From Streptomyces mirabilis (GTDB lineage Bacteria; Actinomycetota; Actinomycetes; Streptomycetales; Streptomycetaceae): a stretch of 64,000 bases of DNA. The notes beneath the pieces are model-generated. The model made no database searches, had not been told where the DNA came from, and saw only the letters and a list, made by a program, of their open reading frames with translations. This document shows, piece by piece, positions 9,385 through 26,885 of this stretch. Every line of letters begins with the position of its first letter. The first letter of the stretch is position 1. The DNA lies in contig NZ_CP074102.1 in assembly GCF_018310535.1 (NCBI RefSeq), positions 4,526,001 to 4,590,000 on the forward strand, read 5' to 3'. The translations under genes and the position numbers were made by a program.

Positions 9385-10197
9385 GTGCGCGCGGATATGG
9401 AATCCGTGCGTCGCGTTCCGTGGGGGGATGTCGTGGAAGTCGAGGAAGTACCCGTGCCAGGTCCTGAGGCGACGGGCAAGGAGACATCTGAGGAGGCGCC
9501 TCGCGTACGCCGGCGGGGGCGTACGGCCCTGCTGATCGCCACGGCCGCCGTGCTGGGGCTCGTCGGGGGCACCTGCGCCGGCTATCTGATCCAGGCCGAC
9601 CGGGAGCCGACCAGGCTGCCGTCGCTCTCGCAGCCCGTGGTGGCCCAGGCCAAGGGAGCCGGTCCCGAACCGCTGTCCGCCGCGCAGGACCGCCGCGTGA
9701 AAACCGACGGCGACCTGCGCAAGCTGCTGATCAAGCGGCCGAAGGGGGCCCAGGACACCGAGTACGCACCGGGCCGCGACGGCTGGCTGACCATGGCCGA
9801 GTACGCGGACCAGCTCAAGGACCCGGACCAGGCGTTCGGGCAGCTGGTCGGCGCGGAGTTCCGGCGTGCGGCCGGCGTCGACTGGCGGGTCGGCAGCACG
9901 TACAGCGTCGGGATCAGGCTCGTGCAGTACCGCCAGGAGGAGAACCTCTCCGCCTCCGAACAGGCCGGCAACTGGAACGTGGACGGCACCCGCAGCTGGC
10001 CCGTCCCCGGCACGGGCGACGGCATGGCGTATGTGACGACCAAGCCCGACACCAAGCCCGGCTACCTACCGGTGTACAGCGCACAGGCACACGCCTGGCG
10101 CGGTGACATCGCCATGGAGGTCTGGATCTACGACACCAAGCCGATTTCCAAGGCCAAGATCATGGACCTGGCCGAGCGGCAGATGGAGCGGCTGTGA
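9385..10197 (+). CDS. Membrane-anchored protein, first of three paralogues
   Basis: This protein has 270 residues from a GTG; an ATG at 9397 is equally possible because no clear Shine-Dalgarno is visible. Residues 1-45 are acidic and cytoplasmic, about 46-68 form one transmembrane helix (ALLIATAAVLGLVGGTCAGYLI), and the rest is exported. The exported part has the motif DLRKLLIKRPKGAQ followed by DGWLTMAEYA, repeated in modified form in the next two genes. Its stop overlaps the next start (GTGA). I do not recognise a named family. The set looks like a co-translated surface complex. Confidence 0.75.
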   Translation: MRADMESVRRVPWGDVVEVEEVPVPGPEATGKETSEEAPRVRRRGRTALLIATAAVLGLVGGTCAGYLIQADREPTRLPSLSQPVVAQAKGAGPEPLSAAQDRRVKTDGDLRKLLIKRPKGAQDTEYAPGRDGWLTMAEYADQLKDPDQAFGQLVGAEFRRAAGVDWRVGSTYSVGIRLVQYRQEENLSASEQAGNWNVDGTRSWPVPGTGDGMAYVTTKPDTKPGYLPVYSAQAHAWRGDIAMEVWIYDTKPISKAKIMDLAERQMERL

Positions 10198-11087
10198 CCG
10201 ACGAGCAACCGATGAGCGAGCAGCCCGTTCAGGAGCGCGTGGAGGAGCTTGTCCAGGGGTCCGCGACCGAGCCCGCCGCGGAGTCCGCGCCCGAGCCCGC
10301 CGCGCCCGAATCCATCGCCCCCGTCAAGAAACCCCTCCGCCGGGGTCGCATCGCCGCCGTCGCCGGTTCGGTGCTCCTCGTCGCGGCCGTCGTCGGCGGT
10401 GCCGGCTACACCGTCGTGACCGTCCAGGACGCCGACCGGGACCCGGGCGCGCCCTCCTGGACCTTCCCGAACGCCGCCCACGACGACGCCACGTCGGCGA
10501 AGGCCCCCGCGGGACTCGCCGCGATGCTCGTGCCGTACGGCACCGAGGGCTGGAGCCGGGGCCCGGACATCGGGGAGTTCGGCTCCGACGCCTCGCTCAG
10601 CGGGCCCGAGGCCACCGCTCTGCGCAAGGAGGCGCTGCGGGATCTGCCGCGTTCCCAGCGGCGGGAGCTGGAGAAGCGGATCGACAAGCAGCACACCAAG
10701 GGCATCGCGATGCGCAGCTACCTCAGCGCGTCCAACGGGTATGCCTCCACGCTGTACGCCGACAGCGCCTTCACCATGAGCGTCGAGCTGGCCCAGATCG
10801 AGGACAAGGCGGCGGTGAAGGGCATGTCGACGTTCCAGAACGAGTTTTTCGACGCCCTCAAGATCTTCCGTAAGGGTCCGGAGATCAAGGGCCACAAGAA
10901 CGCGAAGTGCTTCCTGCCGCCCAAGGACAAGGACGAGAAGCTCGACATGATGGTCTGCTCCGCCTACCAGGGCGACGTGCTGGTCAGCGCGACCGCCTCC
11001 GGGGCCAAGCCGTTGGACACCAAGGGTGTCGCGATGCTGCTGCGCGAGCAGCTCGACCGCATCGCCGAGCCGGGGGAGGCGGTATGA
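10194..11087 (+). CDS. Membrane-anchored protein, second of three paralogues
   Basis: This protein has 297 residues. The N-terminus is Glu/Ala/Pro-rich and cytoplasmic (about 1-45), one transmembrane helix follows (IAAVAGSVLLVAAVVGGAGYTVV), and the rest is an exported domain. The pattern LAAMLVPYGTEGWSRG matches the LRRLVLPAPKGA and DGWL motif of its neighbours. It contains a charged insertion, LPRSQRRELEKRIDKQHTKG. Both ends overlap neighbours (GTGA and ATGA), so all three genes are almost certainly translated together. Function unknown. Confidence 0.8.
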   Translation: MTDEQPMSEQPVQERVEELVQGSATEPAAESAPEPAAPESIAPVKKPLRRGRIAAVAGSVLLVAAVVGGAGYTVVTVQDADRDPGAPSWTFPNAAHDDATSAKAPAGLAAMLVPYGTEGWSRGPDIGEFGSDASLSGPEATALRKEALRDLPRSQRRELEKRIDKQHTKGIAMRSYLSASNGYASTLYADSAFTMSVELAQIEDKAAVKGMSTFQNEFFDALKIFRKGPEIKGHKNAKCFLPPKDKDEKLDMMVCSAYQGDVLVSATASGAKPLDTKGVAMLLREQLDRIAEPGEAV

Positions 11088-18891: not shown

Positions 18892-19077
18892 TCAGCCGGA
18901 CTGGGCGAGCAGCATCACGAGCAGGACGGCTCCGATGCCGCTGATGGTGGTGTTCTTGGCCTTGAGGCCGACGGACAGCGCGACGAACGCGATGATGCCC
19001 AGCGGCCCGTACTTCCACTGGATGAGTTGCTCGAATCCGATGGCGAGGGCGGCGACGGCGAGGGCGATGAGCGGCAT
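18892..19077 (-). CDS. Mini membrane protein of the devE pair (61 aa)
   Basis: The protein has 61 residues from the ATG at 19077, which has AAGGAGGGA 7 nt upstream. A longer in-frame start at 19206 is rejected because of this ribosome-binding site. Two hydrophobic helices flank a central motif, GFEQLIQWKYGPLG, and are followed by VGLKAKN. The same pattern recurs in two more small proteins in this locus (20175-20363 and 22219-22425). It is divergent from devE and probably shares its control region. Function unknown; a membrane partner of the regulators is inferred. Confidence 0.7.
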   Translation of the reverse strand: MPLIALAVAALAIGFEQLIQWKYGPLGIIAFVALSVGLKAKNTTISGIGAVLLVMLLAQSG

Positions 19078-19151
19078 GACGTTCCCTCCTTGGGGTCCTG
19101 GGGAGGACGACTGTGGCGGCCAACCCTCGGGAAGTGTGACCATGTTGTGTA

Positions 19152-19166
19152 AGTTGGCAACCAACT
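19152..19166. promoter_or_regulatory. Candidate DevE/DevA operator in the devE control region
   Basis: The perfect inverted repeat AGTTGG-caa-CCAACT lies between the divergent mini protein and devE. The same half-sites with a different spacer occur upstream of devA. GntR regulators bind such short symmetric sites, so autoregulation or cross-regulation is likely. Confidence 0.6.
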
Positions 19167-19253
19167 CACTGGTAGTTATCTCCGCGTTGGGTCGACTCAT
19201 AACCACCTATCCCGCAACTGCCCAAAGATGGCGCGAAGTTGTAGTGTTTGGTC

Positions 19254-20156
19254 GTGGAACCGGAACACGCCTCCGTCAATGGACGGAACAGGTCACCACG
19301 GCCACAGAGGTCACACCGCGAGGTGGCCGACGAGCTGCGCAGCCGGATCAGGTCCGGCCGTCTGCGGCCGGGGCAGCGCATGCCCACGCAGGCCAAGCTG
19401 GCCGACGAGTTCGGTGTCGAGCGCGGGGCGGTCCGGCAGGCGCTGCGCATCCTGCAGTCGGAACATCTGCTCGTCAATGTGTCCAAAGGGAGCCCGGCGA
19501 CTGTCGCCGACACCCTGGAACGGGCTCTGACCGGCCCGGAAGCCTCGCCGCAGCCCACCACGGTGGCACTCGGTGGCCGGATCACGGCCGCCTTCGAAGC
19601 CCCGCACGTGGAGATCGACGCGCTGTGCCTGACGTCGATATCGCTCACCCTTGCCATGGGCGAACCCCTCCGGCAAATTCACGCGGGCCGAATAAAACCG
19701 GCCAGGGTGGACGTCCGCGTGCTGCTTCCCAGCAGTGACATCGACCTCGCCTTTCCCGCGCCGGTGGACGCCTCGGCGGCCGGCCGGCTCCAGCGCAGCT
19801 GGCTGACCAACCGAAACGCCCAGGGCCAGGTGCTGCGCCACAACCTGCTCGCCCTGCGCGCCACGCACGGCATCGACGTCAACGTCACCTTCCGCGCGCT
19901 CCCCTTCACCCCGCCGGTGAAGTTGTACCTGCTCAACGGGGTCGAGGCACTCTTCGCGTACTACACGCTGACCAGGCGCGAGGAGGAAGTGGACCACGAG
20001 TACCTGGAGATGTACGACGTCCAGGGCACCCAGTCCATGCTGTTCCCCTTCGCGCAGGGGACCGGGCTGCGGGACACCACGTTCGTGGAGCAGTCCCACC
20101 TCTGGTTCAACGCGCTGTGGGAGACCATCAGCTCGAAGCTGCTGCTCTCGAGCTGA
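19254..20156 (+). CDS. devE: DevE, DevA-type GntR regulator
   Basis: This protein has 300 residues from the GTG at 19254. The winged-helix domain is at about 20-80 (EVADELRSRIRSGRLRPGQR, AKLADEFGVERGAVRQALRIL). The C-terminal domain (about 100-300) is not UTRA or FCD: it has strands such as VDVRVLLPSSDIDLAFP and TPPVKLYLLNGVEALFAYY and ends WFNALWETISSKL. It is about half identical to the devA product. In S. coelicolor the devE-devA-devB cluster controls aerial growth and sporulation. A -10-like TAGTGT about 6 nt before the GTG and the absence of a Shine-Dalgarno point to a leaderless mRNA. Confidence 0.85.
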   Translation: MEPEHASVNGRNRSPRPQRSHREVADELRSRIRSGRLRPGQRMPTQAKLADEFGVERGAVRQALRILQSEHLLVNVSKGSPATVADTLERALTGPEASPQPTTVALGGRITAAFEAPHVEIDALCLTSISLTLAMGEPLRQIHAGRIKPARVDVRVLLPSSDIDLAFPAPVDASAAGRLQRSWLTNRNAQGQVLRHNLLALRATHGIDVNVTFRALPFTPPVKLYLLNGVEALFAYYTLTRREEEVDHEYLEMYDVQGTQSMLFPFAQGTGLRDTTFVEQSHLWFNALWETISSKLLLSS

Positions 20157-20174
20157 CCGACTCTCCCCTGCACG

Positions 20175-20363
20175 TCACAGGGCAGGACCCGCGACCATCA
20201 GGGCGAGGACGACCGCGCCGATGGAGCTGCAGGTGGGGCTCTTCGCCTTGATGCCGACGGTGAGGAGCAGCAGGCCGATGACGCCTGTCGTGCCGTACTG
20301 CCACTGCACGAACTGGTCGAAGCCGACGACGAAGAGGGCGGAGAGAAGGGCGATGGCGGGCAT
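20175..20363 (-). CDS. Mini membrane protein of the devA pair (62 aa)
   Basis: This 62-residue protein begins MPAIALLSALFVVGFDQF. The motif GFDQFVQWQYG, then VGIKAKS, aligns residue for residue with the 61-residue protein next to devE. Two predicted transmembrane helices are separated by the polar QWQYG turn. It is convergent with devE at its 3' end (gap about 18 nt) and divergent from devA. It is clearly a paralogue of the other two mini proteins; its role is unknown. Confidence 0.7.
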   Translation of the reverse strand: MPAIALLSALFVVGFDQFVQWQYGTTGVIGLLLLTVGIKAKSPTCSSIGAVVLALMVAGPAL

Positions 20364-20470
20364 GGGCGGTTCTCCTGCTTCTACTGTGGCGTGGTGGTTC
20401 CTCTGGGGTGTGCGATGGTGAGGCCGGGTGAGTCGGTGACGGACTCGGGTGGGGGAGGCAAAACTTCCGC

Positions 20471-20497
20471 CAACTTGGCCAAGTTGGTGACCAACTC
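20471..20497. promoter_or_regulatory. Overlapping palindromes in the devA control region
   Basis: A perfect 18-bp palindrome, CCAACTTGGCCAAGTTGG (20471-20488), overlaps AGTTGG-tga-CCAACT (20483-20497). The second is the same operator type as upstream of devE. The cluster is about 90 nt upstream of the devA start and close to the divergent mini-gene start, a good place for joint control. Confidence 0.65.
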
Positions 20498-20583
20498 TGA
20501 TTAAGTTGTCCCCACTTGGCTGCTAGCCATAAACAACTTTCAAACAACTCCCCGTAGATGGGCGAGAGTTGTAGCGTTTGGTC

Positions 20584-21459
20584 GTGACCCAGGAGAACGT
20601 TGCAGTGAACGGCAGCAGAAGGCTCTCGCCCCAGGAGATCGCCGACGCCCTGCGGGATCGGATCCGGGCCGGTGAGCTCAAGGCGGGCGACCGTCTGCCA
20701 ACTCAGGCCGAGTTGGCAGAGGAGTTCGGTGTCGAGCGGGGCACCGTCCGCCAGGCCCTGCGCGCGCTCCAGGACGACGGACTGCTGAGCAACGTCAGCA
20801 AGGGCAGCCCCCCACGGATCGCGGAGCCGCCGGCCTCGGCCCGGAACGAGCCGCAGACGACGATGGTCGGACTGGCTCCCCGGCTGGCGGACGCGTTCTC
20901 CGCGCCGCACGTCCGGGTCGACGCCGCCTGCCTGACCGCCGAGACTCTGATGCTGGCGCTCGGCGAACCCGTCCGCCAGATCCACGAGGGCCGCATCCTC
21001 CCGGAGTCGATCGACGTCCGTATCCTGCTGCCGTCCCGGGACATCAATCTCGCCTTCCCGGTCCCCGTCGACGGCCGCGGTGACGACGACCCGGTCCACG
21101 AGCGCTGGCTCGCCCAGCGCAACGCCCAGGTCCACGTCCTCCAGCACAACCTGCGCGCCCTGCGCTCCTCGCACGGCATCGACGTACGCGTGGCGTTCAG
21201 GGCCCTGCCCTTCACCCCGCCCGTGAAGCTGTACCTGCTCAACGGCGTCGAGGCCTTAATCGCCTACTACATGGTCATGCGGCGCGAGGAGGAGGTGGCC
21301 GACGGAATGCTGGACATGTACGACGCCGTGGGCTCGGAGTCCCTCCTCTTCTCCTTCGAGAAGCGGACCGGTCAGCGGGACGCCGCGTTCGTGGACCAAT
21401 CCCAGAAGTGGTTCGACGCCCTCTGGGAAACCATCACCACGGACCTGACACTCTCCTAG
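20584..21459 (+). CDS. devA: DevA, GntR-type developmental regulator
   Basis: This protein has 291 residues from the GTG at 20584. Its GntR winged helix (about 13-75: EIADALRDRIRAGELKAGDR, AELAEEFGVERGTVRQALRAL) is followed by the special DevA-type C-terminal domain with SIDVRILLPSRDINLAFPVP and FTPPVKLYLLNGVEALIAYY. S. coelicolor devA mutants are blocked in aerial development. The sequence just before the start (GTTGTAGCGTTTGGTCGTG) nearly repeats that of devE, including the -10-like element, so a leaderless transcript is likely. Its stop TAG overlaps the devB GTG by one base. Confidence 0.88.
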   Translation: MTQENVAVNGSRRLSPQEIADALRDRIRAGELKAGDRLPTQAELAEEFGVERGTVRQALRALQDDGLLSNVSKGSPPRIAEPPASARNEPQTTMVGLAPRLADAFSAPHVRVDAACLTAETLMLALGEPVRQIHEGRILPESIDVRILLPSRDINLAFPVPVDGRGDDDPVHERWLAQRNAQVHVLQHNLRALRSSHGIDVRVAFRALPFTPPVKLYLLNGVEALIAYYMVMRREEEVADGMLDMYDAVGSESLLFSFEKRTGQRDAAFVDQSQKWFDALWETITTDLTLS

Positions 21460-22190
21460 TGACTTCTGATACGGCGCAGACTGAACCTGTGGCAGCAGAG
21501 ACCGATAACTTGCGGGAAGTGATCGAACGCGCTCGCTTTGTGCTCTTCGACTTCGACGGGCCGATCTGTCGGCTGTTCGCGGGGCACTCCGCGGAGGACG
21601 TGGCGAAGGACCTGGTGGAGTGGCTGGAGCGACAGGGGCTGCGGGGACTGCTCACCGAGGAGGAACAGGTCCACCCGGACCCGATGGTCGTCCTCTACGC
21701 CGTCCACCGCCGCCATCCGCACAGCGATCTGGTGAGCGAGCTGGAGGAACGCCTCACCCAGCAGGAACTCAAGGCGGTGCCGTCCGCCTGGCCCACCGCG
21801 TACGCGGACCCGCTGATCCGGACCTGGAGCGCGGTCGGCGCACGGCTGGCCATAGCGACCAACAACTCGGCCCGCACGGCCACGAGTTACCTCGCGAGCC
21901 GGGATCTCACCAGCTGCTTCGCCCCCAACATCTACGGCCGGGGCCAGGATCTGCACCACCTCAAACCGGACCCGCACTGCCTCAACCGCGCCCTGAACGC
22001 CCTGGGCGCCGCCCCCGCCGCTGCCCTGATGATCGGTGACGCCCCCTCGGACTACGAGGCCGCCCGCCAGGCCGGCGTCCCCTTCCTCGGCTACGCCCGC
22101 ACCGCCTACAAGGAGAAGCTCCTGCGCGAAGCGGGCGCCGAGGACGTGGTGAGCTCACTGGAACCGGTGCTGAGGGTGCTTCGGGGGTAG
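21459..22190 (+). CDS. devB: DevB, HAD-family phosphatase
   Basis: This is a 243-residue HAD hydrolase. Motif I is DFDGP (Asp31, Asp33), motif II is ATNNSA (133-138), motif III Lys169 is in HLKPDP, and motif IV is GDAPSDYE (193-200), all complete. The cap between residues 40 and 110 is helical, as in phosphoglycolate-phosphatase-like enzymes. The one-base overlap with devA means translational coupling. In S. coelicolor devB is co-transcribed with devA and needed for development. The substrate is not known from sequence. Confidence 0.87.
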   Translation: MTSDTAQTEPVAAETDNLREVIERARFVLFDFDGPICRLFAGHSAEDVAKDLVEWLERQGLRGLLTEEEQVHPDPMVVLYAVHRRHPHSDLVSELEERLTQQELKAVPSAWPTAYADPLIRTWSAVGARLAIATNNSARTATSYLASRDLTSCFAPNIYGRGQDLHHLKPDPHCLNRALNALGAAPAAALMIGDAPSDYEAARQAGVPFLGYARTAYKEKLLREAGAEDVVSSLEPVLRVLRG

Positions 22191-22218
22191 GCCTGAAGCG
22201 CCGGCGGGCCTGGAGGCG

Positions 22219-22425
22219 TCAGGCCTGGATCTGAAGGGTCAGCAGGAAGAAGAGGGCTGCTGACCACCAGGCCAGGCGCGGGTGCCCTGCTCGGACGCCC
22301 ACCAGAAGGAGGGCCAGCAGAACCACACCCACGAGCCCGATCTCCATCCGCACCAGCTGTGTCACCCCGAGCTCGACTCCCATGCACACCAGCTGAAAGA
22401 AGATCACGTGTCCCACCCCGTCCAC
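22219..22425 (-). CDS. Mini membrane protein of the third pair (up to 68 aa)
   Basis: This small hydrophobic protein has the pattern GVTQLVRMEIGLVGVVLLALLLVGVRAG, matching the Q-[LF]-[VI]-x-x-x-x-G and VG[LIV][KR]A signature of the other two mini proteins. The start is uncertain: GTG at 22425, or GTG at 22407 with GGGGTGGG upstream. It is divergent from the third GntR-type regulator, repeating the layout of the devE and devA units. Confidence 0.6.
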   Translation of the reverse strand: MDGVGHVIFFQLVCMGVELGVTQLVRMEIGLVGVVLLALLLVGVRAGHPRLAWWSAALFFLLTLQIQA

Positions 22426-22448
22426 TTCAATAAATCCGTCAACTAGTC

Positions 22449-22460
22449 GTCCAATTGGAC
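22449..22460. promoter_or_regulatory. Palindrome upstream of the third GntR-type gene
   Basis: GTCCAATTGGAC is a perfect 12-bp palindrome between the divergent mini gene and regulator. It differs from the AGTTGG/CCAACT operators of devE and devA, in line with the more diverged winged helix of this regulator. TTCCAATCCGG at 22532 may be a second half-site. Confidence 0.45.
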
Positions 22461-22601
22461 TGGTTGTCTCGAATTGGATGTGCCCGGTCTGGTTGATCCC
22501 TTAACGGCCAGTCAACTTCCAGCCCTGCCAACCTTCCAATCCGGTCACTCGGGTGAGGGGAAGCGGGTTTGCCCACGGGGCGGGCGAGGTACGGTCGCGA
22601 T

Positions 22602-23513
22602 GTGAGCGGAGAACGCGGCGAGGGAGGCGGCACGGAGTTCCAGCGCATCCTGGAGACGTTGCGAACCCGTATCGCCGACGGCACGTACGCGATCGAGTCC
22701 CACCTGCCCGCGCAGCGTGAGCTCGCCGAGGAGCTCGGGGTCTCCCGCGACACCGTGCAGCGTGTACTGCGGGAGCTGAACAACGAAGGCTGGATCAAGT
22801 CCCGTCAGGGCAGCGGATCGCGGGTGGTGAAGAGTCCAACCCATCTGGAGAACCCGAAGCAGGAAGCGCCCCGGGTGCGCGCGACTCTGGGTACCTTCAT
22901 CGCACGGGCCTTCGCCCAGCCGACCGTACGGCTGGACGTGTTCACCCTCACGTCAGAGTCCCTGGACGCCCACATCCGACTGCAGTCGGAGCGCATCCGC
23001 CTCAGGGAGCTCAGCCCTGAGCGCATCGAGCTGCGGATGCTGCTGCCCGATGCATCACTCGAACTGCCGTATCCCCGAGCGAAGACCCGCGCGAGTGAGG
23101 AAGAGAGGGAGCCAGGGCAACTGGCCTGGTTGAACGAGCAGCTGCAAGAGCGACTGCGCGCCATTGCCCGACGGCACACCATCTCGTTGCGCTCGGCGCT
23201 GCGGGACCTCAAGACGGAGGGGCTGGTGCCCTTCGTGCGCATGGAGGTCCGCCATGTGCCGCTGGCTCCGGCGTTCAAGCTGTACTTGCGCCCCGAGGCG
23301 GAGGCACTGTTCGGGCCGTACGAGGTGATCGAGCGCTCGATCCTCTTGGAGGACGAGACCGAGGTCGATGCCCTTGACGTGCTCGGTCTGGGATCGACCC
23401 TGACCCGTCACGTCAACGACGAGGGCGATCCGGACTCCTCCGGGTCTGTGTTCATGGAGAGCATGCAGGGCTGGTTCGACTCCTGCTGGGAATTCCTCGC
23501 GGTGGAGGACTGA
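22602..23513 (+). CDS. Third DevA-like GntR regulator
   Basis: This protein has 303 residues from the GTG at 22602. A canonical GntR helix-turn-helix (ELAEELGVSRDTVQRVLREL) is followed by RQGSGSRVV. The C-terminal domain keeps the DevA-type order of elements: LSPERIELRMLLPDASLELPYP, PLAPAFKLYLRPEAEALFGPYE and a final MQGWFDSCWEFL. Identity to DevA outside these blocks is low. TACGGT about 10 nt before the GTG and the lack of a ribosome-binding site again suggest a leaderless start. It heads a possible operon with the double-kinase gene downstream. Confidence 0.8.
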   Translation: MSGERGEGGGTEFQRILETLRTRIADGTYAIESHLPAQRELAEELGVSRDTVQRVLRELNNEGWIKSRQGSGSRVVKSPTHLENPKQEAPRVRATLGTFIARAFAQPTVRLDVFTLTSESLDAHIRLQSERIRLRELSPERIELRMLLPDASLELPYPRAKTRASEEEREPGQLAWLNEQLQERLRAIARRHTISLRSALRDLKTEGLVPFVRMEVRHVPLAPAFKLYLRPEAEALFGPYEVIERSILLEDETEVDALDVLGLGSTLTRHVNDEGDPDSSGSVFMESMQGWFDSCWEFLAVED

Positions 23514-23694
23514 GGCGACGCGGAGTCGACCGAGTTTCCAACGGCGTGACGTTCCTGAGAGGTACAACTCTTTCTCAAGTAGGCGCCGATTTCGCAGACG
23601 GCTCAGCCGTGCCAACGGGTGGGCACTAAGGTGTGCTGACCCAGTCGCGATGCATGAAAATCGGCGACGACGCACAGTTATTCAGGAGTGACCC

Positions 23695-25956
23695 GTGGGC
23701 GTTTCATCGATGCCCGGCATGGGCGGTCCGCCGATGCCCCGCCCGCCCGGCCGGCCGGCCTTGGAGGAGGCGGCGGACACGGCGTACCGAGGCTTCGTCC
23801 GTTATGCCAAGGCGTTCGGAGAGTTCGGCCGTGGGCACCACAACCTGAATTACATGGTGAGGCCGCTTGCGGGGGACGACACCCGGTTGGTCGGGTGCGA
23901 CGACGGGGCAGCGGTGACGGTGCGGGAACGGATTCCCTCGGCGCTGCCCGTGGTCATCAGGACCTGGCAGGACGAGGCCGAAATCCTCAACACGATCTGG
24001 GACGTGCTGCCGCACGTTCCACGGTGCCTGGTCAAGCGTGGTGACGTGACCATCCTCAGCTACGTCGAGGGCGTCCCGCTGTCGCGCGTCTGCCCCAACG
24101 GCAAGCCGGTGGACTCCGGGCTGATCGTCGCCCTTGCGGATCTCCTCGCCAATCTGACGCATGTGCGCCGGCAGCACCTTCCTCCGCTGCCGGCGTCCTG
24201 GCCGCACTCCAGCCGGGACAGCAGGGCCTTTCTGCAGGCGTTGGCATGGGCGGCGGAGGAACAGATCCGCCGACGCAACTGGGCGGATTTCGGCGGACTG
24301 TTCGCGATGCTGGGCATCCCCGAAGACGCGATGGTGCGGTTCGCGGAACGGGTTCCGGCGCTCATCAGCCGCCCCTTCAGCCTGCTCCACACCGATCTGC
24401 ACCGGGACAACGTGATCGTCTCCTACGACGGCGACCCGCCCCTGATCTGTGTCGACTGGGAACTGGCGACCTACGGCGATCCGCTGCACGACCTCGCCAC
24501 GCACCTGGTGCGGATGCAGTACCCCGCGCGCCAGTGGCCCGAGGTGATCGAGTCTTGGCGCGAGGTCATGGGGCGACGGCGGCCCAAGGCCGTGCAGGGT
24601 CTCGACCGCGACCTCAAGCGCTACGTCGCCTTCGAGCGTGCCCAATCGGTCTACCCCGATGTGATAAGGGCCGCCACGTCGCTCGGTGATTCCACCGACC
24701 AGCAGGAGCTGCAGGCCGCGACCCGGGCGGTACGCCGGGCCCTGGTGGCTGCCGAAGAGCCTTTGCGGCTGATGAGCGTGCCGGACGAAGCCGAGATCGA
24801 GCGCATCCTCTTCCGGTGGCACGAGTCCCACGGGGGTCGACACAAAGGGGGCAGGCCGGTCTCCGATGTCCTATGGACACGTGACCTTCGGGTCCCCCCA
24901 CATCCGCAGTTCCCCTCGACAGCGGTGAGCAGGGCGCTGTTCGAGGAAGGGACTGCCTCCGCCGACCGCGTGTTCAAGGGAACGGCCCATCTCAATACGG
25001 CGGTACGCGTACCGGAAGTGCCGTTTCCCGTCATGGTTCGCAGAAAGGTCGGCTCGGCGAATACCCGGGAGCGCCGCTTCCTCAATGAGCACGCCGTGCT
25101 GGCAGCCATCGAGCGGTCAAACGTTTCCGTACGTGCTCCGCGGGTGTTGGCCCTGGGTATCAGCGGCCTGAAGGAGCAGTTCACCATCCACTCCTACGAA
25201 GGACCGGCGGACGGGTACAGGCCACCGGATCACCCCGCGGACGGCCTCCGCCCGTACGAGGCAGACGATCTCGTGGATCAGCTTCGGGAGCTGACCTACG
25301 TCGACTGCGAAGTGCTGGATCCCGAGATGAAGGGCTTGAATTTCTACCGGGAACTCCGCGACGAGCTGGTCCGCATGGTGAACGGTCTTCCCAAGTCGAC
25401 CAGAGACCTGACACGAGAACTCGGCCTACCCATCGGCTACCGTCTCGGCGAGATCCTCGACCGTCACACCCTGGTCCCGCGCCGGCCCGTGCTTCTGCAC
25501 GGCGATCTGAACCCGTGGAACCTCGTGCGTCGGGAGGAGGGCGGTCTGGTCCTCATCGACTGGGAGATGGCGATCGTCGGTGACCCGCTGTACGACCTGG
25601 TCCGTCACATGCATCTCACGCCCACGCGTCCAGAGATCCGTGAGCGCCTCTTCTCCCGCTGGGCCCGTCTGTTGCCCGAGGACTGCACGAAGGGCTGGCG
25701 TGAGGACTGGCGTGTCTACCGGTGGATGGAAGTCGTCCGCTCGGCCTACGTGGACCTCGACCGCCTCGTGACCGGCGACAGTCTGGACGCCCCCAACGTC
25801 CGTCGCGCCGTGGACACCTATGCCATGACCCTGGCCGAAGCCACGGCGGCGCTGGGACTTCCGGGCAAAATGACGGCGAACCCTTATCTTGCCCGTGCGC
25901 TGCCGCACGGAGACCATGGAGGCCAACGGACAGCTGGGGTCTCCGCGGATTTCTGA
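23695..25956 (+). CDS. Tandem double aminoglycoside-phosphotransferase-type kinase (753 aa)
   Basis: Two complete APH/choline-kinase domains lie in one chain. Domain 1 (about 25-390) has the catalytic loop HTDLHRDN (His232, Asp234, Asn239) and the metal-binding CVDWE (Asp254). Domain 2 (about 420-735) has HGDLNPWN (His602, Asp604, Asn609) and LIDWE (Asp622). Each begins with a glycine/Asn turn (GHHNLNYMV; GTAHLNTAV). Single-domain members are about 300 residues long, so this is a true fusion. The N-terminus is Pro/Gly-rich. The start has AGGAG upstream. The substrate is unknown: small-molecule or sugar phosphorylation, counter-acting the DevB-type phosphatase, is one idea. Confidence 0.8.
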   Translation: MGVSSMPGMGGPPMPRPPGRPALEEAADTAYRGFVRYAKAFGEFGRGHHNLNYMVRPLAGDDTRLVGCDDGAAVTVRERIPSALPVVIRTWQDEAEILNTIWDVLPHVPRCLVKRGDVTILSYVEGVPLSRVCPNGKPVDSGLIVALADLLANLTHVRRQHLPPLPASWPHSSRDSRAFLQALAWAAEEQIRRRNWADFGGLFAMLGIPEDAMVRFAERVPALISRPFSLLHTDLHRDNVIVSYDGDPPLICVDWELATYGDPLHDLATHLVRMQYPARQWPEVIESWREVMGRRRPKAVQGLDRDLKRYVAFERAQSVYPDVIRAATSLGDSTDQQELQAATRAVRRALVAAEEPLRLMSVPDEAEIERILFRWHESHGGRHKGGRPVSDVLWTRDLRVPPHPQFPSTAVSRALFEEGTASADRVFKGTAHLNTAVRVPEVPFPVMVRRKVGSANTRERRFLNEHAVLAAIERSNVSVRAPRVLALGISGLKEQFTIHSYEGPADGYRPPDHPADGLRPYEADDLVDQLRELTYVDCEVLDPEMKGLNFYRELRDELVRMVNGLPKSTRDLTRELGLPIGYRLGEILDRHTLVPRRPVLLHGDLNPWNLVRREEGGLVLIDWEMAIVGDPLYDLVRHMHLTPTRPEIRERLFSRWARLLPEDCTKGWREDWRVYRWMEVVRSAYVDLDRLVTGDSLDAPNVRRAVDTYAMTLAEATAALGLPGKMTANPYLARALPHGDHGGQRTAGVSADF

Positions 25957-25994
25957 CCTGCCGCCGGGCTTCGGCATGGGGGAGGGGACTGCGG

Positions 25995-26885
25995 ATGTCC
26001 GGTGGGTCGAGCAGGGCGCCCGAAAACGGCATGGGCGAGCGGCTGAAGCGTTTTCAGACGCGGTACGAGCCGATGTTCACACGTATCTTGCTGATGACCA
26101 TCTTCGTCACCGAAGTGACCGCCCAGTTCGTGAAGCCGGTCGGAGACGCCCTGCAGGACAAGGCGTATCTCGGTGGCGCGCTGCTCAGCCTGGTGGGGTA
26201 CGTGCTGTACGACACGGTGAAGGACTTGGCCGCGTCCCTTCGGCTTCCTGCGCGCGCGCAGGTCGCCTCGCGTGAGTTGGGAAGCTTCGTCAGCGAGGCG
26301 TTCCGCGCCCGAACGGTGGAGATCAGGTTTCTGGGCTACACCGGAGAGACGCTCTACAACGAGCTCTATCACCGCTTGGAGGAACTCCTCGACGATCCCG
26401 GACCGACCAGGCACGTTTCCGTGAGGGTGCTGATCCCGGATTTCGGGCAGCCGATGATCGTCCCCTCGAGAGTCGCGGAGGACGGTGTGACGCCGGTGGA
26501 CGATCCGGACTACCGAAAGCGCCTCGAACTGAAGTGCCAAGAGTACGACCAGACCCTGTCGGGTATCGCGGAGCGCCTCACTACGGCGGGACGGGTCACG
26601 GCGGAGTGCGAGTACCGCCTCTACCCCGGCATACCGAGGGACAAGATCTGCATCTTCAACCGGGAACAGGTACTGCACGGCCTCTACGACGTGGCCGCCC
26701 GGACCGTGCAGCGCAGTTCGGACCCGGAGTTCTACGACCCCAAGGGTTACCGCACCGACCTCAACGTCTGGTCCCGGGAGGGAAGCGAGGACTCCAAGAC
26801 CGTCGTCGCCACATGGAACAAACATCTCGACGATCTGTGGAATCTGGCGGCGCGGCCGTACTGGCGGCAGCGGAGGGCGGCCTGA
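25995..26885 (+). CDS. Membrane hairpin fused to a DevA-type C-terminal-like domain
   Basis: This protein has 296 residues from the ATG at 25995, with GGAGGGG upstream. Two transmembrane helices (about 28-47 and 57-75) surround TEVTAQFVKPVGD, resembling the E/D-x-Q-[LF]-[VI] turn of the mini membrane proteins. The rest has TVEIRFLGYTGETLYNEL, VSVRVLIPDFGQPM and DKICIFNREQVLHGLYD, then WNKHLDDLWNLA. This is the same order of strands and terminal helix as in DevE and DevA, without any helix-turn-helix. It follows the double kinase by 38 nt. No catalytic motif was identified; a phospholipase-D-like fold is only a guess. Confidence 0.65.
   Translation: MSGGSSRAPENGMGERLKRFQTRYEPMFTRILLMTIFVTEVTAQFVKPVGDALQDKAYLGGALLSLVGYVLYDTVKDLAASLRLPARAQVASRELGSFVSEAFRARTVEIRFLGYTGETLYNELYHRLEELLDDPGPTRHVSVRVLIPDFGQPMIVPSRVAEDGVTPVDDPDYRKRLELKCQEYDQTLSGIAERLTTAGRVTAECEYRLYPGIPRDKICIFNREQVLHGLYDVAARTVQRSSDPEFYDPKGYRTDLNVWSREGSEDSKTVVATWNKHLDDLWNLAARPYWRQRRAA

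Follow-up and report, generated by a model that had tools for sequence, protein, structure and literature searches.

In Streptomyces coelicolor, devE and devA are duplicates, devB is co-transcribed with devA, and the divergent small gene devC encodes "a small hypothetical protein" (Clark and Hoskisson 2011, PMC3187754). According to the same paper, devE has a devC-like neighbor in both S. coelicolor and S. sviceus, the latter species carries the extra regulators DevF and DevG, devA and devE act at different stages, mutants in devA, devB and devE are affected in development, and DevA represses itself and devB, which needs tight control (citing its ref. 24). The sensed metabolites and the regulons were early-stage knowledge in 2011, and the C-terminal domain was treated as an effector-binding or oligomerization domain (PMC3187754). 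The same genes are present in the window analyzed here, a stretch of 64,000 nucleotides from the 9.6-Mb genome of Streptomyces mirabilis. Between positions 18892 and 26885, the gene order is mini-protein 1 (-), DevE (+), mini-protein 2 (-), DevA (+), DevB (+), mini-protein 3 (-), a third GntR regulator (+), a double APH-type kinase (+), and a protein without a helix-turn-helix (HTH) (+), hereafter the fused protein.

We read the locus as a self-contained switch under local autoregulation, with even odds of being right; in this reading we infer which sites are operators, what the ligand is, how the kinase and phosphatase act on it, and what the mini-proteins do. Each regulator would join a GntR winged helix to a catalytically dead phospholipase D (PLD)-like domain, whose ligand is probably a small molecule, likely phosphorylated, or a phospholipid headgroup. 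Binding of each regulator to a dyad in its divergent promoter would set the level of the regulator and of the facing mini-protein, and in the case of DevA also that of DevB. The phosphatase DevB and the kinase would make or remove the ligand, the mini-protein would act as a membrane-side output or feedback arm, and the fused protein would be a membrane-tethered copy of the same sensor domain. Each part of such a circuit would be open to testing: the dead phospholipase-type sensor, the candidate operators, the kinase with its matching phosphatase, and the membrane partner. It would also define, among bacterial GntR regulators, a subfamily with the layout of archaeal TrmB, and a very short membrane protein family seen only beside this subfamily in the genomes searched.

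As genes, devA, devB, devC and devE are already known. New, as far as the literature search goes, in which PMC3187754 was the one paper listed on devA, are the pseudo-PLD domain, the mini-protein family and its strict linkage, the two dyads that are each specific to one type of unit, the link to the kinase, and the hairpin homolog without an HTH. The parts of PMC3187754 covered here contain no PLD-like fold, mini-protein family, dyads, kinase or fused protein, its ref. 24 may hold an operator, and the terms "membrane" and "kinase" each occur 0 times in its main text. The initial annotation had taken the mini-proteins, third unit, double kinase and fused protein as not described as one system; this goes too far for the mini-protein, already published as devC with a devC-like gene next to devE.

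Three GntR-type regulators, each facing a divergent mini-protein of 61 to 68 residues, were found as the initial annotation had described them. Pfam assigned HTH families to the regulators, APH to the kinase and HAD to DevB, with E values for GntR of 3.4e-17, 4.1e-19 and 1.8e-20 in the three regulators. The regulators had also been described as free of UTRA and FCD domains, and neither domain was among the Pfam matches listed (up to E 1), which places them outside the FCD (FadR) and UTRA (HutC) groups. All three have the N-terminal GntR winged helix and the full-length similarity, including the C-terminal domain, of the DevA subfamily. Identity to DevA in the matched stretch was 61% for DevE and 34% for the third regulator, and the next-best DevA matches in the same genome fell mainly in the HTH. 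PADLOC labels for the regulators were set aside, their matches falling in the HTH part, with one Csa3 match of the third regulator extending further.

The C-terminal domain of the regulators is, in predicted models of DevA and the fused protein, a PLD-like fold, and it is without the catalytic His. In the HxK(x)4D motif, Lys is kept, His is present in 0 of 44 and 0 of 25 sequences, and Asn stands in the place of Asp in 37 of 44 and 25 of 25. The combination of an HTH with such a domain likens DevA in layout to archaeal TrmB, and TrmB and TrmBL2 (PDB 2f5t, 3qph and 5box) likewise join an HTH to a PLD-like effector domain. In comparison to TrmB, the HTH here is of the GntR type, the aligned identity is 12 to 17%, so that the similarity is one of fold only, and the ligand is hypothetical. 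The Pfam E values for GntR versus TrmB were 1.8e-20 versus 2.5e-6 in the third regulator and 4.1e-19 versus 0.02 in DevA, which argues against a TrmB-type HTH. A sequence search of a PDB set with the effector domain returned HTH matches only and no solved relative of the C-terminal domain. The single-motif PLD enzymes Nuc, NucT and Zucchini differ from the DevA-type domain in the catalytic His, absent here from all 69 sequences. The FAM83 DUF1669 proteins also have a pseudo-PLD domain; they are eukaryotic, lack an HTH, and bind and place CK1 kinases.

The fused protein had been expected to carry the C-terminal domain of the regulators, and profile comparison bore this out. In hhalign, the DevA/E-like profile (45 sequences, single-copy type included) matched it with Prob 99.5 and E 8e-23 over 188 columns, and the third-regulator profile with Prob 97.3 and E 1.7e-11; the two C-terminal domain profiles matched each other with Prob 100. 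In single pairwise BLAST comparisons, the fused protein matched DevA at E 2e-5 over 189 residues, DevE at 1e-4 and the third regulator at 6e-4. A hidden Markov model (HMM) built on the HTH-less fused family matched 55 of 55 regulator open reading frames (ORFs) of at least 270 residues in the fetched loci (E 2.7e-21 to 1.3e-5) and 2 of 6 shorter regulator-like ORFs. Conversely, the DevA C-terminal domain alone, searched against whole genomes, matched fused orthologs in two other genomes (E 3.6e-5 and 3e-4). The annotated features TEVTAQFVKPVG, VRVLIPDF and LWNLA were located in the protein, which gave no Pfam match up to E 1 and lacks the HTH of the DevA subfamily. Organism-named homologs of the fused and mini-proteins were Streptomyces among the matches listed.

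The motifs GFEQLIQWKYG, GFDQFVQWQYG and GVTQLVRMEIG, followed by VGLKA, VGIKA and VGVRA, were located in mini-proteins 1, 2 and 3, respectively. No Pfam family above the cut-off was found for these proteins. BLAST of mini-protein 1 against mini-protein 3 gave no match; an HMM built from mini-proteins 1 and 2 and relatives of the latter matched mini-protein 3, the most diverged of the three, at E 9.6e-5. By profile, hydrophobic segments and divergent position beside a DevA-like gene, all three belong to the DevC family. The description of two-helix proteins needs correcting for mini-proteins 1 and 2, in which hydrophobicity suggests three segments; mini-protein 3 shows weak segments only. The median ratio of nonsynonymous to synonymous substitutions (dN/dS) was 0.33, 0.38 and 0.54 in the three classes (36, 22 and 28 comparisons), so the mini-proteins look protein-coding and under purifying selection. 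The forward primer of the 1.2-kb devE-complementing fragment in PMC3187754 resembles a stretch inside mini-protein 1 of the window; thus, an intact mini-protein on the complementing plasmid may not have been needed, the chromosomal one being still present.

Distribution was surveyed in 246 genomes of the class and in 81 Streptomyces genomes. In the class, the DevA domain was found in 31 genomes, 21 from the 24 Streptomyces and ten non-Streptomyces genomes spread over four families; a four-row profile gave 32, the extra one being weak (E 0.006). Among the 81 Streptomyces genomes, the domain was found in 49 (117 match rows, a single gene sometimes giving several), mini-proteins in 35 (62 rows), the kinase in 35 (40 rows), and a fused-type protein in 12 (E 1e-15 or better, some partial). 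All 62 mini-protein rows fell in the 49 domain-bearing genomes and none in the other 32. Mini-proteins found widely without such regulators would have spoken against a common system, and they were not found away from them: 60 of 62 were divergent from the domain at a distance of 401 to 600 nt, with the remaining two within 5 kb, and in the class survey 31 of 31 strong matches, all in 17 Streptomyces genomes, had divergent partners. Five further partial rows in the class survey (E 0.001 to 0.009; one Streptomyces, four other genera) compare with about 2.5 expected at that threshold. The two mini-proteins not divergently paired within 1 kb, G246:C234:23373-23555 and G264:C13:194791-194973, lie in the sole mini-bearing genomes without a detected kinase.

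The view of the locus as one system was supported by 45 loci (L070 to L114); since the fused protein served to fetch them, how complete they look depends on that choice. Of these, 42 held devB, a kinase, one or more mini-proteins and two or more DevA/E regulators, the kinase exceeding 600 residues in 40 of the 42, and 37 held a third-type regulator as well. Of the other three, two were without the module and one was on a contig starting just before the gene. L096 and L097 have a fused-type gene with no other module gene close by; L096 belongs to Streptomyces olivochromogenes, which has a second, complete locus in L104. Some of these loci are closely related to each other or to the window, and L104 looks nearly identical to it at the mini-proteins. 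None of the ten loci fetched outside Streptomyces had a mini-protein, and they held the regulator and devB only (one of the contigs measures just 3.2 kb); a mini-protein is thus not a general requirement of the regulator. Because these loci hold regulator and phosphatase alone, and mini-protein and kinase co-occur, regulator and phosphatase look like the older core and mini-protein and kinase like additions in Streptomyces.

Candidate operators were sought in 118 mini-regulator pairs (91 DevA/E and 27 third), in which the mini-protein had a start giving about 62 residues and the regulator lay on the opposite strand, other mini-proteins being dropped. The exact dyad AGTTGGNNNCCAACT was present in the gap of 78 of 91 DevA/E pairs and of none of the third pairs, and CCAATTGG in the gap of all 27 third pairs and of no DevA/E pair. 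With one mismatch allowed, the DevA/E dyad was found at 106 of 115 DevA/E regulators, mostly 96, 87 and 102 nt before the ORF start (70, 15 and 9 sites). Third-type regulators kept their own dyad in 27 of 27 cases with a mini-protein and in 9 of 23 without a detected one (p 9e-7), some of which may have a diverged mini-protein (likely in L114, possibly in L070). In the window, the DevA/E dyad occurs twice and GTCCAATTGGAC once, compared to 0 in 100 shuffles, and these two places are the only exact DevA/E dyads in the whole genome. In 68 non-redundant promoters, further AGTTG/CAACT-like half-sites were seen around the dyad up to the -10 box, which agrees with autoregulation.

Several results weigh against the proposed switch. 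Even with one mismatch, 9 of 115 DevA/E regulators had no dyad, and 14 of the 23 third-type regulators without a detected mini-protein had no third-type dyad. The DevA/E dyad was kept at 24 of 26 DevA/E regulators without a detected mini-protein, so it is not there for the mini-protein alone. Raw dyad counts were not above a reversed-pattern control (2 versus 2 in the window's genome, 66 versus 60 in the 81 genomes), and the case for the dyads therefore rests on place and conservation; the comparison of dyads with domains in the 81 genomes took in part of the 117 domain rows, with third-type, fused and several others left out, which makes its count of 48 a lower bound. With one mismatch, 15 sites versus 18 in the control gave no sign of a wider regulon in the same genome. 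The dyad was found before 0 of 65 kinase genes and 0 of 48 fused genes, so nothing shows that the regulators control them. PLD-like folds bind nucleic acid and protein too, and the predicted fold match is silent on the ligand.

The kinase matched Pfam APH at 2.5e-43 in two stretches. For its substrate class, Choline_kinase at 3.2e-7 was just above the cut-off, and the best NCBIfam match was thiamine kinase with 56.6 bits, far below the cut-off of 299. Matches of the kinase to solved structures were weak and to MphH only. DevB had no match among solved structures at 1e-8. The kinase is a tandem double domain in the window and in 40 of the 42 complete fused loci, and a single domain of about 364 to 391 residues in L042, L051, L053 and L057, which have no fused gene; the domain may therefore have been duplicated as the locus grew.

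Four other explanations bear on parts of the switch, in which the mini-protein may contact the regulator, the fused protein or the kinase. The mini-protein might never touch the regulator and might instead act as a membrane effector under shared regulation, or work with the kinase, for instance by anchoring the substrate of the kinase at the membrane or aiding its transport, an explanation that we treat as tentative and rather unlikely. The shared divergent promoter would be enough to explain the link between mini-protein and regulator, and among the 81 genomes mini-protein and kinase occurred together in 33, the kinase alone in two and the mini-protein alone in two (Fisher p 8e-8 within the 49 domain genomes, uncorrected for relatedness, so that a few events may be reflected). 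Of 31 loci fetched via the regulator, 16 held both, 14 neither and one the kinase alone, and no mini-kinase fusion was found in the loci seen.

More doubtful is the mechanism of the initial annotation, in which each mini-protein binds the C-terminal domain of its regulator, holding it at or releasing it from the membrane, with the fused protein as the same pair in one chain. The strict divergent pairing agrees with it, the fused protein does join a membrane hairpin to the same domain, and mini-protein class follows regulator class in 111 of 118 pairs, the seven exceptions being third-unit mini-proteins nearest DevC. Homology between hairpin and mini-proteins was not supported, however: the mini-protein profile gave nonsignificant hhalign Prob values (4.6 and 2.2) in comparisons with the fused N terminus and the whole fused protein, which weakens the gene-fusion argument for physical partnership. 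Contact is also opposed by the ten non-Streptomyces loci and the 26 DevA/E regulators without a detected mini-protein. Mirror-tree correlation over the 118 pairs was 0.83 overall, and within classes, against the mini-protein's own regulator, 0.075 for DevE (35 pairs, p 0.22), 0.77 for DevA (56) and 0.54 for the third (27). In loci with two units, DevC distances tracked DevE (0.79) better than DevA (0.44); the mini-protein's own regulator was not singled out, and mirror-tree as a partnership test was taken as uninformative.

Less probable still, the fused protein might be a membrane-anchored dominant-negative decoy that pairs with DevA, DevE or the third regulator and is tuned by the mini-proteins expressed from the same promoters. 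Single-motif PLD-like domains pair with each other, as in Nuc and Zucchini, and a tethered copy without an HTH could therefore pair with the regulators; the resulting dimer, with one HTH only, could not hold a palindromic operator. If true, a dead phospholipase fold would here serve as a relay from membrane to promoter within a developmental pathway. That the pseudo-PLD domain binds no small ligand at all, and dimerizes or helps DNA binding as in the chromatin protein TrmBL2, is improbable, given that the same domain occurs without an HTH behind a membrane hairpin and that in all ten non-Streptomyces loci the regulator has a phosphatase gene as its neighbor.

Features of the proposed switch in the window, with positions counted from its first nucleotide
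Feature	Position	Strand	Description
Mini-protein 1	18892..19077	-	61 aa, devC-like; divergent from devE
Dyad AGTTGGCAACCAACT	19152..19166	.	Mini-protein 1/devE gap; putative shared operator
TAGTGT	19242..19247	+	Probable -10 box, leaderless devE transcript; from sequence, conservation and analogy to devA in PMC3160421
DevE-type regulator	19254..20156	+	GntR HTH and predicted pseudo-PLD domain
Mini-protein 2 (DevC)	20175..20363	-	62 aa; divergent from devA; devC in PMC3187754
Dyad AGTTGGTGACCAACT	20482..20496	.	devC/devA gap; putative shared operator
TAGCGT	20572..20577	+	-10 box of devA; leaderless start at 20584; compare S. coelicolor devA, PMC3160421
DevA regulator	20584..21459	+	GntR HTH and predicted pseudo-PLD domain (domain about 20866-21456)
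DevB	21459..22190	+	HAD-type phosphatase; overlaps devA stop
Mini-protein 3	22219..22425	-	68 aa from its GTG, 62 from inner GTG; divergent from third regulator
Palindrome GTCCAATTGGAC	22449..22460	.	Mini-protein 3/third-regulator gap; putative operator of third unit
Third regulator	22602..23513	+	GntR HTH and predicted pseudo-PLD domain; probable start
Kinase	23695..25956	+	753 aa; two APH-type domains
Fused protein	25995..26885	+	Two-helix membrane hairpin (residues about 30-80) and predicted pseudo-PLD domain, no HTH

The regulators probably start at the GTG codons at 19254 (DevE), 20584 (DevA) and 22602 (third regulator). The first two starts were chosen because the upstream sequence is nearly identical to that of S. 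coelicolor devA, a documented leaderless transcript (PMC3160421, Table 1). The -10-like hexamers TAGTGT, TAGCGT and TACGGT are each followed by the GTG six bases on (19242-19256, 20572-20586 and 22590-22604), and all three regulator transcripts are probably leaderless. In L052, a fourth regulator of the third type lies between the third regulator and the kinase (9423-10292; G175:C11:78692-79291), its profile match extending at the edge across a single in-frame TAA. In L106 (7341-7523) and L113 (7140-7574), short stretches resembling a regulator occupy the position of the third regulator and are perhaps remnants of a lost third unit.

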